A stretch of 25,950 bases of DNA from a virus, in IMG/VR virus record IMGVR_UViG_3300007734_000522, positions 1-25,950 of that record. One strand, given 5' to 3'. Shown in pieces: positions 4,899-23,154 of the stretch. Each line of letters starts with the position of its first letter. Positions within the stretch are counted from its first letter, which is position 1. The position numbers and the translations under genes are program-made. Under the pieces are notes generated by a model. It had not been told where the DNA came from, did not search any database, and saw only the letters and a program-made list of their open reading frames with translations.

Positions 4899-4930
4899 CT
4901 TATAACCCTGGAATTATCTAGGGTTATAGG
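4899..4930. terminator. Strong hairpin between early units
   Basis: TATAACCCT (4901-4909) pairs with AGGGTTATA (4920-4928), and the pairing extends inward and outward with two G-U pairs to about 14 bp around an ATTA loop. It lies 10 bases after the stop of the gene ending at 4889. No T-run follows, so termination is uncertain; it could also block read-through or protect an mRNA end. Confidence 0.45.
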
Positions 4931-4986: not shown

Positions 4987-5015
4987 ATAAATATAACAAC
5001 TGAAAGGGTTATAAA

Positions 5016-5255
5016 ATGACAAACATTGTACAAGTAAACTTAGAAGCATTTGGTTTTAGAGAGCTTGATATTGCAAGTAAACTATTATCAGCTGTTTCAA
5101 AATATGGTTATCCAGAAGATTTTTCAGATTCTGGAATATCTTTAGCGTTTAATACAAACTCAGGTTATGTATTTTTAACAAACGATGACTATCAAGTTTT
5201 GTTGTTAGAGAATGGTAAGCTAACAATATTAAACGAAGACGAGGAGGCTGCATAA
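5016..5255 (+). CDS. Conserved small phage protein with NSGYVFLTNDDYQV motif
   Basis: A 79-residue protein with a helical N-terminal half and the motif NTNSGYVFLTNDDYQVLLL, followed by an acidic tail (NEDEEAA). From memory, small proteins with an N-S-G-x-V-F-L-T-(D/N)-x-D-Y signature are widespread in phages and proteobacteria without a known function. It is the first gene after a strong host-type promoter with a GAAAGGG ribosome site, which fits high early expression. Confidence 0.88.
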   Translation: MTNIVQVNLEAFGFRELDIASKLLSAVSKYGYPEDFSDSGISLAFNTNSGYVFLTNDDYQVLLLENGKLTILNEDEEAA

Positions 5256-11939: not shown

Positions 11940-12278
11940 ATGAACGATGCACCAAAGAATAAGATCTATTTGAATCTTGTTCCGAATGTAAATAAAAAAC
12001 AAGGCGACAATCAACCAGTAATGGTTGCACCTAATTCACCTAAAGCTCCAGAAGGAAAGAACTGGAAGATGAATGTGAATATTAATGGTGAGTGGTATGA
12101 CTATTGTGCCTTTGATGGTACAGACATAGAAGGTAATCCAACAGGTGGATACACTGTGATCTTAACTAAGAAAGAAGCACAAGCAAAAACAGGAGTAAGT
12201 CAGCCAGGCTTTAAAGCAGGTGGATTTCAAAAGAAATCATTTGCAAATAACAAGAGCTTTGGTAATAGAAACTACTAA
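11940..12278 (+). CDS. Hypothetical 112-residue protein, possible ssDNA-binding accessory
   Basis: The protein has a beta-rich centre (WKMNVNINGEWYDYCAFDG, then GGYTVILTKKEA) and a Gly/Phe/Asn/Lys-rich tail (GFKAGGFQKKSFANNKSFGNRNY), recalling disordered aromatic tails of single-strand DNA-binding proteins. It follows the annealing-protein gene by 2 bases, which fits such a role. There is no direct family match, so this is a guess from context. Confidence 0.7.
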   Translation: MNDAPKNKIYLNLVPNVNKKQGDNQPVMVAPNSPKAPEGKNWKMNVNINGEWYDYCAFDGTDIEGNPTGGYTVILTKKEAQAKTGVSQPGFKAGGFQKKSFANNKSFGNRNY

Positions 12279-12301
12279 TAGCTACGTAAGTAACTATTAA
12301 T

Positions 12302-12378
12302 TCTACCCATTGGGTTTTCATCGGCTGTTCTCAGCCACCCTTTCGTTGTCCCAGTGGGTAGAGTAAACAACAAAAGGT
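12302..12378 (+). ncRNA. Structured RNA with anti-Shine-Dalgarno loop (candidate cis/trans regulator)
   Basis: TCTACCCATTGGG (12302-12314) pairs with CCCAGTGGGTAGA (12350-12362) over 13 bp with one G-U. The 35-base loop holds an inner hairpin GGCTG-TTCT-CAGCC (12323-12336) and then ACCCTTTCGTTGT (12337-12349). That loop can pair with the leader just downstream: GTTGT with ACAAC (12367-12371) and CCTTT with AAAGG (12373-12377), which would bury the ribosome site of the gene at 12385 in a pseudoknot. With one bulge it also pairs 12 bases of ACAACTGAAAGGG at 4996-5008 and 13059-13071. No T-run follows on either strand, arguing against a terminator. Confidence 0.6.
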
Positions 12379-12384
12379 AACAAT

Positions 12385-12690
12385 ATGATTAACAAAGAAG
12401 ACTTCATCTCTATTGAAGAAAAGATACAAAAAAGAATTATCCAAGAAAGACACCAAGAGTATGGTGATTATGAGGAAAACTTTGCATTACTTGCAGAACT
12501 ATTTTCTATAGTTTTATTTGATAAGATTAAGAAAACATTAGAACCTGAGGATGTGGGACACATTATGATGGCATTGAAACTATATAGATGCACAAAGAAA
12601 TACAAAGCAGATAGCTATGATGATCTAGCAATCTACTGCAAGATGACTAAAAATCTAAGACATAAGGGTATTGCCAAAAAGGATAAATAG
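12385..12690 (+). CDS. DUF6378-like protein, 101 residues
   Basis: The motifs RHQEYGDYEENFALLAELF (about residues 23-41), LEPEDVGHIMMALKLYR (52-68) and DSYDDLAIYCKM match, from memory, the DUF6378 pattern (YGD-x-x-x-N-F...DV-x-x-x-M-x-x-x-K-x-x-R...D-x-x-D-x-A-x-Y). It is an all-helical fold common in phages and distantly MazG-like; nucleotide hydrolysis is possible but not shown. Its ribosome site AAAAGG lies inside the candidate pseudoknot, so its translation may be regulated by the upstream RNA. Confidence 0.8.
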   Translation: MINKEDFISIEEKIQKRIIQERHQEYGDYEENFALLAELFSIVLFDKIKKTLEPEDVGHIMMALKLYRCTKKYKADSYDDLAIYCKMTKNLRHKGIAKKDK

Positions 12691-13017: not shown

Positions 13018-13041
13018 GTCATTATTAAAAAAAAACGAAAG

Positions 13042-13071
13042 ACAACGTGAAGTTGTTTACAACTGAAAGGG
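13042..13071 (+). promoter_or_regulatory. Leader with two mutually exclusive hairpins before the DnaA-like gene
   Basis: ACAAC (13042-13046) can pair with GTTGT (13052-13056); alternatively AGTTG (13051-13055) pairs with CAACT (13060-13064). The second hairpin abuts the GAAAGGG ribosome site. ACAACTGAAAGGG (13059-13071) is an exact copy of 4996-5008. Confidence 0.4.
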
Positions 13072-13077
13072 ATAGCT

Positions 13078-13584
13078 ATGACACCAAAAGACTTTAGAAA
13101 AGAAATTAAATTAAGATATTCATTTAATAGTTTTGCAAACTTAGATGATAGAGAAAAGAAAATCTATCGTACAGGATTTAGAACTGGATATAAATTAGCA
13201 CGAGAATATTTTAAAAGTAATGTTAGACATAAGCAAACAGTTGTTAAGGAAGTAGTTAAGTATGTAACTATCAATGATGTGGTTGTACCTGAGAATGTTA
13301 AAAGTATTTTAGCAATCGTTGCCAATCAATTAGGAATTGATGTTAATGATATTATTGCTCAGACAAGAATACAATCTGCTGTGATTGCACGATCCATATT
13401 AATAAATGTTTTAAGAGATAAGTATGCTATGCCATTCACAAAGATTGGAGTGATCTTAGGTAATAGAGATCATACGACAATGATTCATCATACCAAAATG
13501 AAATTAAAAAAAGAACATTTCTGGAAACCAGAGAATGCTATCTGGAATAAATATAAATATGTGATGGATACTGTTAAGGCTTAG
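13078..13584 (+). CDS. DnaA domain IV-like DNA-binding protein
   Basis: A 168-residue protein whose second half is the DnaA C-terminal DNA-binding domain: VANQLGIDVNDIIAQTR, then AVIARSILINVLRD (about residues 100-113), and the DnaA signature as LGNRDHTTMIHH (about 124-135). The AAA+ ATPase and N-terminal domains of bacterial DnaA are absent; residues 1-70 are a basic, unrelated helical segment. It should bind TTATNCACA boxes. Two perfect boxes lie at 16261 and 16529. It may act in phage origin choice, as a transcription regulator, or to compete with host DnaA. It ends the rightward unit and overlaps the convergent gene by 4 bases. Confidence 0.87.
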   Translation: MTPKDFRKEIKLRYSFNSFANLDDREKKIYRTGFRTGYKLAREYFKSNVRHKQTVVKEVVKYVTINDVVVPENVKSILAIVANQLGIDVNDIIAQTRIQSAVIARSILINVLRDKYAMPFTKIGVILGNRDHTTMIHHTKMKLKKEHFWKPENAIWNKYKYVMDTVKA

Positions 13585-19890: not shown

Positions 19891-22800
19891 TTATCCTGTT
19901 ATACTTCCTGATGAATTGAATACTATAACTTTATCAGAACCATCTGTTGTTACTGTTGGAGAACCAGTTGTAGTTCCTGAATAATTTGCAGTTGGTATAC
20001 GAAGTATTACAACTCCTGAACCTCCATTACCACCAGTTGCTGATGGAACACCATCACCTCCACCACCTCCTCCTCCTCCTGTATTTGCAGTAGCTTTTGT
20101 TGCAGCTGTTCCTGGTCCAATACCACCAGTACCACCACCACCAGTACCAGCAGGATTTGCTGATCCTGATCTTGAAGAACCTGAACCTCCACCACCTCTA
20201 TCAACAGCAGAACCTGTTATAGAAGATGATAAACCATCTCCACCATGTCCCTGACCATCAGTATTTCCAGCTTCACCTGCACCTCCACCACCTCCTCCAG
20301 TTCTAGGTGATGTTATTCCTGTCCCTCCACCAAAACCTTGATTGGCAGTTCCACTTCCACCAGTAGTGCTATTACCACCACCTCCTGAACCACCACTAAG
20401 ACCAGTAGTTCCAGATGGTCTTGAACCACCACCTCCTCCACCTGAAGATGTAATTGTTGTAATTCCTGTTCCTGAAATTGAACTATCAACTCCATTTGTT
20501 CCTGCCACAGTACCTGTTGCACTACCAGCACCACCTCCTCCTACTGTAACTGTATAAACTGTTCCAACAGAAAATGATAAAGTTGATTCACTACTTCCTC
20601 CACCACCTGAAGTTTCTGTGGAATATGAATTTCTATATCCTCCTGCTCCCCCTCCACCACCATCATCATATCCACCTCCTCCTCCACCAGCTACTACTAA
20701 AAAATCTATTGAATAAGGTGGTGGTGATAAAGAAACTGTTCCTTCATTTACACCAGATGATGCTAACCAACCTTGTGTAGCATCTATATATGTAATTGTT
20801 ACAGCTTCTCTTTCTGTATTTAAAACTCTATTATCTGTTGAACCATTAATTTTATTTCCATTAGGTGATAATGTAATTGCGTTAGTATCAAAAGTTCCTG
20901 CGTAATCTAATAATATAATTGTATCTCCAGCAGATGGAGAAGCAGGTAATGTTACTGTAAATGCAGCTGATGTAGTGTTGCAAGGATAACCATTCCCAGC
21001 AACAGCAGTAAAACCTGTTGTTTGAACTGATTGCCAAGATATTCCACCAGATCCAAAACTTAAATTTCCTGATCCATCTGTTTTTATAAATTGTCCAGAT
21101 GTTCCATCTGCAGTTGGTAATACCCAAATTTTATTTGCTGTTAAGTTTGATGCACCTTTAAATCCTACATAATTAGATCCATTAGCTGTTGCTTCTGCAA
21201 ATCTTATTTCAGCTTGGTTAGCATAAGTTTCAGAAGTATTAATAGTTGGTGATGTTAAAGTTTTATTAGTTAAAGTATCAGTAGTAGCTCTTCCAACTAA
21301 TGTATCTGTAGAAGTAGGTAATGTTAAAGTTCCAGTATTAGAAATACTAGAAATAATAGGAGAAGTTAAAGTCTTATTTGTTAATGTATCTGTAGTTGCT
21401 CTACCTACTAATGTATCTGTTGATGTAGGAAGTGTTAATGTTCCTGTATTAGATATTGAAGATATAATTGGTGTTGTTAATGTTTTATTAGTTAATGTTT
21501 GTGAATCTGTTGTTCCAACAACTGCACCAGATGGAGCTGATAATGTAGCAATAGATCCTAATCCTAAATTAGTTCTTGCAGAAGATGTAGAGTTTAGATC
21601 AGATAAATTATTTGCAACTAATAATGCACCAGATAATGAAGCATAAGCTGCAACCCAAGCAGATCCTGTATAAACTTTCATAGCATTATCTGTTGAATTG
21701 AAATATAATGCTCCACCAACTAAAGCATTACCATCATTATCTAATGTTGGATCAGATGTTTTAGTTCCTAAATATCTATCATCAAAATTATCATAAGCTG
21801 CTAATGCTGAATCTCTTGCACTGTTTGCTGCATTGGCTGCGTTACTAGCATTGTTAGCAAAGTTACTAGAATTATTTGCAAAGTTACTTGAGTTGCTAGC
21901 ATGATTACTAGAATTATTTGCAAAGTTGCTAGAATTAGATGCGTGGTTGCTAGATGTATTTGCAGAGTTTGAAGAGTTGTTTGCAAAGTTACTAGAATTA
22001 CTTGCGTGGTTAGATGAATTGCTTGCATGGTTAGCAGAAGTATTAGCACTATTAGAACTATTGTTTGCAAAGTTTGATGAATTAGAAGCATGGTTAGCTG
22101 AAGCATTTGCTGAATTAGAACTGTTATTAGCAAAGTTACTAGAGTTAGACGCATGATTAGAACTATTAGACGCATGGTTAGATGCGTTGTTAGCAAAGTT
22201 AGAACTGTTAGCAGAATGATTAGCTGCTGAATTTGCTGAGTTGCTAGAATTATTAGCAAAGTTAGAAGCGTTAGATGCAGAGTTTGCTGCAGCGTTGGCA
22301 TTAGCTTGTACTGAACTTAAATAAGTTGAAGCAGTATTAGCAGAGTTAGAAGCATTGTTTGCAAAATTAGAAGAGTTAGACGCATGATTGGCTGCAGTGT
22401 TTGCACTATTAGATGAATTGTTTGCGTAGTTAGAAGAGTTAGAAGCATGATTTGCTGCTGCATTAGCATTGGCAGATGCTGAAGCATTATCAACTATTAA
22501 ATTCCATTTAGCAGAATCAGCATTAGAACTGATTGGTGTTGTACCTGTGGATGTATGATTAGTATTACAAATATAAATATTACCATTAGAAGTATCTTTA
22601 ACTAAATCACGAGCATAGTAAGTTGTAGCAGTTGTCCAGTTGCCAGCATAAGTACCTAATTCTTGTGTAACTGATATTTCTCCAGAACTATCAAATGCTA
22701 GAATTTTATTAGCACGAGAAGATGCACCTACAGTAAACTCAGTAGATGTCATTGTATTTGTTTTAGATAATTTAATAGATCTTGTTACTTCTTCTTGTAA

Positions 22801-23154
22801 TTGCTGAACAGCCATCATTGCTCTGTCTAATCCTTCTTCATGTGATTCAGCTGGGAATGGATCGTTAGCAATATAATCTATAGATTGTGTTTGTGGTAAG
22901 TTACGTCTTAATACAACTGTTTGTGTTGATGTTGGAATATTACCAGTTGTAAATACAACTGATCCACCACCAGCCACACCAGCTCCTGTAACTGTATAGT
23001 GTGTTGTTAATGTTTTAATTGTTTCAGTTCCTGTAGAAGAACGAATGATTACTTGAATATCTGAGTCTTGAAATATTTTAAAGGTATAAGAAAAGGTGGT
23101 AGTTGATCCATCACCACTATAACTGTTCTTAACTGTAGTTGAAGATATTGTCAT
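19891..23154 (-). CDS. Tail fibre protein, T7-like N-terminus, Gly-rich tip
   Basis: A 1087-residue modular fibre. Residues 1-135 match the T7 gp17-type N-terminal domain that attaches to the tail (TFSYTFKIFQDSDIQVI, DYIANDPFPAESHEEGLDRAM). About 165-222 is a small beta domain. About 225-445 is a stalk of some 30 Ala/Asn/Ser heptads. About 455-500 contains the FDDRYLG...LYFNSTDNAMKVYTG linker. About 555-635 has 37-residue LTNKTLTSPIISSISN repeats. About 815-1060 is very Gly-rich with GGGGG runs, resembling polyglycine-sandwich receptor-binding tips. A trimer that recognises the host surface is expected. No strong ribosome site precedes ATG 23154. Confidence 0.93.
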   Translation of the reverse strand: MTISSTTVKNSYSGDGSTTTFSYTFKIFQDSDIQVIIRSSTGTETIKTLTTHYTVTGAGVAGGGSVVFTTGNIPTSTQTVVLRRNLPQTQSIDYIANDPFPAESHEEGLDRAMMAVQQLQEEVTRSIKLSKTNTMTSTEFTVGASSRANKILAFDSSGEISVTQELGTYAGNWTTATTYYARDLVKDTSNGNIYICNTNHTSTGTTPISSNADSAKWNLIVDNASASANANAAANHASNSSNYANNSSNSANTAANHASNSSNFANNASNSANTASTYLSSVQANANAAANSASNASNFANNSSNSANSAANHSANSSNFANNASNHASNSSNHASNSSNFANNSSNSANASANHASNSSNFANNSSNSANTSANHASNSSNHASNSSNFANNSSNSANTSSNHASNSSNFANNSSNHASNSSNFANNSSNFANNASNAANAANSARDSALAAYDNFDDRYLGTKTSDPTLDNDGNALVGGALYFNSTDNAMKVYTGSAWVAAYASLSGALLVANNLSDLNSTSSARTNLGLGSIATLSAPSGAVVGTTDSQTLTNKTLTTPIISSISNTGTLTLPTSTDTLVGRATTDTLTNKTLTSPIISSISNTGTLTLPTSTDTLVGRATTDTLTNKTLTSPTINTSETYANQAEIRFAEATANGSNYVGFKGASNLTANKIWVLPTADGTSGQFIKTDGSGNLSFGSGGISWQSVQTTGFTAVAGNGYPCNTTSAAFTVTLPASPSAGDTIILLDYAGTFDTNAITLSPNGNKINGSTDNRVLNTEREAVTITYIDATQGWLASSGVNEGTVSLSPPPYSIDFLVVAGGGGGGYDDGGGGGAGGYRNSYSTETSGGGGSSESTLSFSVGTVYTVTVGGGGAGSATGTVAGTNGVDSSISGTGITTITSSGGGGGGSRPSGTTGLSGGSGGGGNSTTGGSGTANQGFGGGTGITSPRTGGGGGGAGEAGNTDGQGHGGDGLSSSITGSAVDRGGGGSGSSRSGSANPAGTGGGGTGGIGPGTAATKATANTGGGGGGGGDGVPSATGGNGGSGVVILRIPTANYSGTTTGSPTVTTDGSDKVIVFNSSGSITG
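21251..21580 (-). repeat. 111-base (37-residue) tandem repeats in the tail fibre
   Basis: Three units start at about 21251, 21362 and 21473, a period of exactly 111 bases. Each encodes the D-T-L-T-N-K-T-L-T-(S/T)-P type sequence. The first two are nearly identical in protein but differ at many third codon positions, so the DNA copies are clearly diverged while the protein is kept. Confidence 0.8.
21816..22480 (-). repeat. Ala/Asn/Ser heptad repeat stalk in the tail fibre
   Basis: About 30 units of seven residues follow the pattern A-(N/S)-x-(S/A)-(S/A)-N-(F/H/S), for example ASNSSNF, ANNSSNS, ANTAANH. Alanine at the first position and Ser/Ala at the fourth suggest an alanine-type coiled stalk. 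One interruption (about residues 278-289, STYLSSVQ) breaks the register. Confidence 0.8.

Follow-up and report, generated by a model that had tools for sequence, protein, structure and literature searches.

Genes and hairpins at the locus

The window is a virus record of 25,950 bases (IMGVR_UViG_3300007734_000522), and by the window we mean this whole stretch of DNA. It is from a freshwater virus that is akin to the SAR11 phages of the ocean. At the hairpin locus, its closest named relatives are the Pelagibacter phages HTVC203P and Skadi, followed by HTVC010P, Lederberg, and HTVC034P. Judging from sequence, these relatives place the window among the HTVC010P-type podophages.

The operon that holds the hairpin runs rightward, in the order putative nuclease, annealing protein, a 112-amino-acid gene in the ssb position, the hairpin, a DUF6378 gene, a small gene, and a DnaA_C gene. 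The 112-amino-acid gene (11940-12278, + strand) is a putative ssb by its position: it follows the gene for the single-strand-annealing protein, and homologous operons are annotated in this way. We refer to it as the ssb-position gene. An AF2 model of its protein (pLDDT 73) had no significant match in the PDB, and we do not consider the weak rows for a PC4-like fold in the structure comparison to be evidence for that fold. The gene downstream of the hairpin (12385-12690, + strand) belongs to Pfam DUF6378 (PF19905, E = 2.1e-16). Its relatives are labelled "phosphofructokinase" in PHROGs, which looks like a mis-annotation beside the Pfam assignment. The DUF6378 gene of HTVC010P itself (KC465898, 28139-27908) matches as two segments that lie in different reading frames, and its annotation divides it into several hypothetical proteins; the cause is either a frameshift or a sequencing error. 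The DnaA_C gene starts at 13078 and a small early gene starts at 5016; their ribosome leaders are upstream, at 13059 and 4996. Elsewhere in the window, 19891-23154 encodes a tail-fibre-like protein of 1087 amino acids, which has long SSNFANNSSNSAN repeats and whose C-terminal part is rich in glycine.

The main hairpin spans 12300-12364 on the + strand. Its outer stem (P1) pairs A12300-G12314 with C12350-U12364, so the 13-bp stem that was originally predicted is borne out and extended to 15 bp. The minimum free energy of the hairpin is -31.1 kcal/mol (z = -5.55), and none of 200 shuffled sequences was as stable. Hairpins with at least 13 bp, at least 7 G-C pairs, and a loop of 20-60 nt occurred once in the real window and not at all in 60 dinucleotide shuffles of it. 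Within P1, the minimum-energy fold has a 5' U-tract (UUUU at 12315-12318, with up to seven or eight U in the marine lineages); the inner hairpin P2 (GGCUG-UUCU-CAGCC at 12323-12336, pairing 12323-12327 with 12332-12336), as had been predicted; single-stranded CCCUUUC (12338-12344); and the 3' loop segment GUUGU (12345-12349). The leader ACAACAAAAGG, which is the ribosome site of the DUF6378 gene, follows at 12367-12377. No run of T follows P1 in the window sequence, which agrees with the original prediction, so the hairpin does not look like an intrinsic terminator.

A small AU-rich hairpin (P0, 12276-12299, pairing 12276-12285 with 12290-12299) lies just upstream of P1 and begins at the stop codon of the ssb-position gene (TAA, 12276-12278), as it does in the freshwater lineage. 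P0 is predicted from the fold and from pair-keeping variants in relatives. Its counterpart in the Skadi lineage spans the stop codon and also shows pair-keeping variants, and by eye there are similar stop-spanning hairpins in HTVC034P and Lederberg.

In a scan of five phage genomes for second copies, we found no other long-loop hairpin with CCUUUC, with a stem threshold that the HTVC010P hairpin itself falls under because of mismatches. The window contains another hairpin of 14 bp (CTTATAACCCTGG...CTAGGGTTATAGG, 4899-4930) in an intergenic gap, again with no T-run.

Conservation in HTVC010P-type phages

We collected 80 viral contigs of freshwater relatives via the DUF6378 protein and also with an independent scan for a DNA pattern. 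They show the same element, and two entries from the pattern scan (L099 and L127) lack the hairpin. The stems differ in sequence from contig to contig (for example, CCCACUACG/CGUGGUGGG in L051 and CUAGAGGAGG/CCUCCUCUAG in L058). Across 21 distinct freshwater sequences, 96.6% of the cells in the alignment are paired, and 10 of the 20 pairs in P1 and P2 show double changes, including all five pairs of P2. There were 63 double-change cells, as compared to 20.3 in shuffles, and none of 500 shuffles reached the observed covariation score. If the partner strand was slid along the alignment, then pairing fell to about 50%. Thus, the compensatory changes in the stem that the original prediction had looked for are present.

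Of about 245 sequences from HTVC010P-type phages, the freshwater ones included, all but one have a hairpin in this gap, between the ssb-position gene and the gene after it. We sorted 246 sequences by sequence rules into freshwater (78), Skadi-type (91, including polar relatives with CCCUUC), HTVC010P/034P-type (57), and Lederberg-type (11), with nine others. The stem sequences of the four lineages, which include the isolates HTVC010P, HTVC034P, Skadi, HTVC203P, and Lederberg, are unrelated to each other. All four have an unpaired CCCUUUC beside U-rich joints (CCUUUC in some freshwater members and CCCUUC in the polar relatives). In Skadi and HTVC203P, the gap reads GUCUUGGGGGAG-U6-...UUCCCUUUCGGUAGUUUU-CUUCCCCAAGAC, and Skadi-1 carries GCUUUGGGGGAG/CUUCCCCAAGGC. 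HTVC034P and HTVC010P have a longer hairpin, and the loop of its inner stem contains UUUCCCUUUCU. This inner stem (P3) varies within the HTVC034P lineage (ACUAGA, AUUACC, UUGGCU, GCAGC, or GCUAC); the partner strand follows and the loop CCCUUUC is constant. The Lederberg lineage has a simple hairpin with U7-CCCUUUC and no upper stem.

Eight of the nine unclassed sequences have an inserted gene that separates the hairpin from DUF6378; the element thus stays next to the ssb-position gene. We read the hairpin directly from six of these (L032, L077, L249, L250, L302, and L303), and in L304 and L305 the 95 nt upstream of DUF6378 are identical to those of L302. The inserts are methyltransferase-like genes in L032 and L077, and small ORFs in L249, L250, and L302-L305. 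The methyltransferase-like gene (MKKSSALAYVGFN..., family assigned by eye) is inserted exactly after the hairpin and its leader. The remaining sequence, L047, lacks the hairpin: upstream of 5001, the entire hairpin is cleanly gone between ATTCTA and the start codon, which might be a natural deletion or an assembly artefact.

Among about 1957 pairs that enclose P1 in the predicted folds, about 1666 are Watson-Crick and 291 are G-U, with one A-C mismatch. These counts are biased toward pairing because they come from predicted folds, and the formal test is the covariation in the 21 freshwater sequences. Since G-U pairs are frequent and A-C mismatches are almost absent, the element acts as the + strand RNA. 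Because matching mutations preserve the stem and loop in hundreds of related viruses, the hairpin is a real structured RNA, with + strand sense, a fixed position, and conservation in four lineages. As far as can be read from sequence, its universal features are a long and variable stem, a displayed CCCUUUC, flanking U-rich joints, and a place after the ssb-position gene.

The covariance model built for the element (R1) gave weak scores for the marine forms, and the polar relatives scored 25-28 bits (E = 0.01-0.05). For homology across lineages, we therefore rely on position, the stem, and CCCUUUC and not on the model. In bacterial genomes, 45 sequences matched the pattern and none was a real copy according to the covariance model. 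Within the collections that we searched, the element was found solely in HTVC010P-type phages.

Pairing of the loop with ribosome leaders

The loop in the window is complementary to the leader of the DUF6378 gene: GUUGU (12345-12349) can pair with ACAAC (12367-12371), and CCUUU (12339-12343) can pair with AAAGG (12373-12377). This duplex has 10 pairs and one C/A opposition (-10.1 kcal/mol). A 10-pair match recurs in three lineages, with the Skadi lineage as the exception. In the freshwater lineage, the energy is -8.8 for native combinations, -8.2 for swapped ones, and -4.6 for shuffled leaders (permutation p = 0.0045, which is confounded by relatedness). In Lederberg loops, CCUUUCUUU pairs with AAAGAAAGG (-11.1). 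Complementarity in HTVC010P/034P is through other nucleotides, UUGUUUU with AAAACAA (-3.9). The Skadi/HTVC203P lineage retains P1 and CCCUUUC but has no complementarity to the leader (-2.6, or no better than -3.0 for shuffled leaders), and its loop varies less than its leader (6 versus 17 variants in 35 unique sequences). So, the predicted loop-leader pairing holds up in the freshwater, Lederberg, and HTVC010P/034P lineages but not in the Skadi lineage, and it is not supported as a mechanism for all lineages.

The pairing had also been proposed to form a pseudoknot that hides the start of the gene at 12385. The potential for pairing is there, but in the three lineages that have it, the leader segment begins just 1-4 nt past a stem of 12-15 bp, and the Skadi lineage indicates that such a pseudoknot is not general. 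Given the geometry of pseudoknots, this spacer is too short, so it is sterically unlikely that the full stem and the pseudoknot form simultaneously; P1 and the loop-leader pairing probably compete, and a static pseudoknot is less likely. RNA that lacks the 5' arm of P1 is predicted to refold into a loop:leader hairpin (-10.4 if it starts at 12338, with the 3' arm of P1 in the loop). In the intact RNA, the fold with P1 (-31.1) is favored over the competing fold (-18.8) by about 12 kcal/mol.

The predicted match in trans is confirmed. Exact copies of ACAACTGAAAGGG are present on the + strand at 4996-5008, in the leader of gene 5016, and at 13059-13071, in the leader of the DnaA_C gene. Each can pair with 12 nt of the loop with one bulged base. 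Among the ribosome sites of the window, apart from its own leader, the loop has no better targets than these two (-16.9 and -15.6), so on the basis of pairing energy both are possible trans targets. However, the dnaA leaders of most freshwater relatives lack ACAACTGAAAGGG, and the match is limited to the window and its near relatives, so we rejected trans regulation of dnaA. Of the proposed switch that links the early genes to the DnaA-like gene, the functional structured RNA is supported by covariation in the stem, but the link to dnaA is not conserved.

In several genomes, early leaders that resemble ACAACTGAAAGGG or AGAAAGGGAA recur before genes that differ from one another. The leader (A)ACAACTGAAAGG, or a near variant, is found in the window at 4996, 5376, and 13059, and in other contigs at L325 15764, L326 3124, L327 490, and L330 925. 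It precedes unrelated genes in several freshwater genomes and resembles a strong ribosome leader that is used across the lineage. We also noticed an A tract (at least 7 A, ending in C) at 13028-13036 in the window; most marine members and many freshwater members have such a tract some 30-50 nt before the DnaA_C gene.

In three of five genomes, pairing with the loop is stronger for early genes than for late ones (p = 0.02, 0.002, and 0.01). As a control we used the tail of 16S rRNA, with a typical alphaproteobacterial sequence. The control showed the same tendency toward early genes in two of those three genomes, and its best sites genome-wide were also enriched in ribosome sites.

Proposed function of the element and comparison to known systems

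We propose that this undescribed RNA regulates in cis from its place between two cistrons and that its loop binds a partner in trans, and from the sequences we give this reading a probability of roughly 45%. The element would be transcribed within the nuclease / annealing protein / ssb-position / DUF6378 / dnaA-like operon, at the 3' boundary of the ssb-position gene. P0 would form at the stop codon, and the long P1 would hold open the pyrimidine-rich loop with CCCUUUC. We infer that a trans partner reads the loop, most likely an RNA-binding protein from the phage or the host, and this would set expression across the junction, chiefly the translation of the next gene. Reading in trans is the best-supported mechanism because the loop outlasts both the sequence of the stem and the complementarity to the leader, and because the element is unmoved by inserted genes. 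The loops of the freshwater and Lederberg lineages can additionally pair with the Shine-Dalgarno segment that follows, which would be a lineage-specific layer of gating of the ribosome site. Since this pairing and the full P1 are probably mutually exclusive, the ribosome site would be open when P1 is formed, and the loop would close the site when the 5' arm of P1 is lost or occupied. Given the gap of about 12 kcal/mol between the folds, the partner would act during transcription or on nascent or cut RNA.

Alternatively, the tandem hairpins might fix how much upstream message there is relative to downstream message, as an element for RNA processing, stability, or termination (an RNase site, a barrier to 3' exonucleases, or a leaky terminator). 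The two hairpins lie within a few bases of each other and directly 3' of a stop codon, whatever the next gene is, and clusters of hairpins without U-runs have been proposed to be terminators (PMC8355165). We consider this somewhat unlikely: there is no U-run here, the Lederberg lineage lacks an upper stem and is thus unlike typical RNase III sites, and a conserved CCCUUUC loop amid changing stems would be left unexplained. Another possibility is a trans-acting anti-Shine-Dalgarno RNA, in which a processed hairpin would silence early genes by showing CCCUUUC to their ribosome sites. This motif is single-stranded on a variable stem in every lineage. There are also long matches to early leaders within the same genome (Lederberg 21924 with -17.6, HTVC010P 33400 and 33780, Skadi 1913, and gene 5016 in the window), and among the 14 best sites in the window, 7 look like ribosome sites, versus a background of 5%. 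But the 16S-tail control likewise tends to favor early genes and ribosome sites, and the loops of other lineages score about equally, except in the window. Furthermore, the dnaA match lacks conservation; among the few early genes sampled, no matching GAAGGG sites appear in the polar relatives that have CCCUUC; and a consensus scan found no promoter-like site within about 350 nt upstream and there is no terminator. We view this explanation as unlikely. We think it quite unlikely that the element mimics the 3' end of 16S rRNA, with CCCUUUC on a stem of free sequence binding both the phage's early ribosome sites and that of the next gene, as an RNA-only switch from early to later translation.

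A metabolite riboswitch for the DUF6378 gene would fit with the conserved nucleotides in the loop and with the complementarity to the ribosome site in some lineages. Nevertheless, this is very improbable, as the element also precedes unrelated inserted genes, the conserved nucleotides are almost all pyrimidines, the inner architecture varies by lineage, and there is no match to a riboswitch in Rfam. A hairpin that functions in the DNA, as a replication or single-strand origin, is suggested by its location within a replication/recombination operon and near a DnaA-like gene, but this is hardly credible given the frequent G-U pairs and the near absence of A-C mismatches. We also considered a U-rich triple helix (ENE-like), because the U-tracts face each other and the leaders are A-rich, and set it aside; some leaders in the Skadi lineage are A-poor.

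HTVC010P-type phages are described as the second most abundant known group of pelagiphages (PMC12753301), yet the majority of their genes have no assignment. Marine and freshwater members alike carry the strongly covarying RNA in their replication operon, and it is directly testable with culturable host-phage pairs on the SAR11 strain HTCC1062. Should the loop prove to read ribosome sites or a protein, this would be a rare case of a regulatory RNA that is defined in a virus of streamlined aquatic bacteria.

The element is apparently undescribed. No family in Rfam 15 reached its gathering score in the window, and the freshwater, HTVC034P, Skadi, and Lederberg forms gave only sub-threshold chance matches. 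In the literature, we found no paper on this hairpin element or on RNA regulation in HTVC010P-type phages. Several known systems share some of its features. Translational pseudoknot operators (rpsO/S15 and T4 gene 32) are structures near a ribosome site with competing folds that are read by a protein. In contrast, this element follows the ssb-position gene rather than preceding it, and the protein is hypothetical. The intercistronic RNase III sites of T7 are hairpins with an internal loop between early genes, whereas this element has a conserved loop on a variable stem, and the upper stem is often missing.

The rhizobial sRNAs SmelA075 and SmelA099 have anti-Shine-Dalgarno hairpin loops (CCUCCUCCC) that are thought to shut off ribosome sites (PMC3927594). 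As in our element, the stem is variable and the pyrimidine-rich loop is fixed and complementary to ribosome sites. But those are separate sRNAs with several hairpins, while the phage element is one main hairpin within an operon, and a separate promoter or terminator for this hairpin was not detected.

There is also a likeness in form to the leader motif of rpsB (ribosomal protein S2). This motif has been reported for Candidatus Pelagibacter ubique as well as for most Alphaproteobacteria (PMC2704228), and is thus carried by the SAR11 host group. When our element was compared with an alignment of nine rpsB leaders, it lacked the rpsB signature (CACAC...CYGGUG...GGAGGUUYAACCRG), so the element is not a member of the rpsB motif, and searching with model R1 (cmsearch) did not recover any rpsB leader. 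Also, P1 is longer in the phage element, the spacer is 1-4 nt instead of about 7, and the element precedes DUF6378 or an inserted gene, not rpsB. Still, the rpsB motif has a long P1, an inner stem, and a junction segment that pairs with a 3' extension after P1, near the ribosome site. Judging from sequence, the freshwater element has each part of this topology separately (P1, P2, and the loop-leader pairing). So, the statement that no described class has this form was wrong as to topology, which the phage element shares with the rpsB motif.
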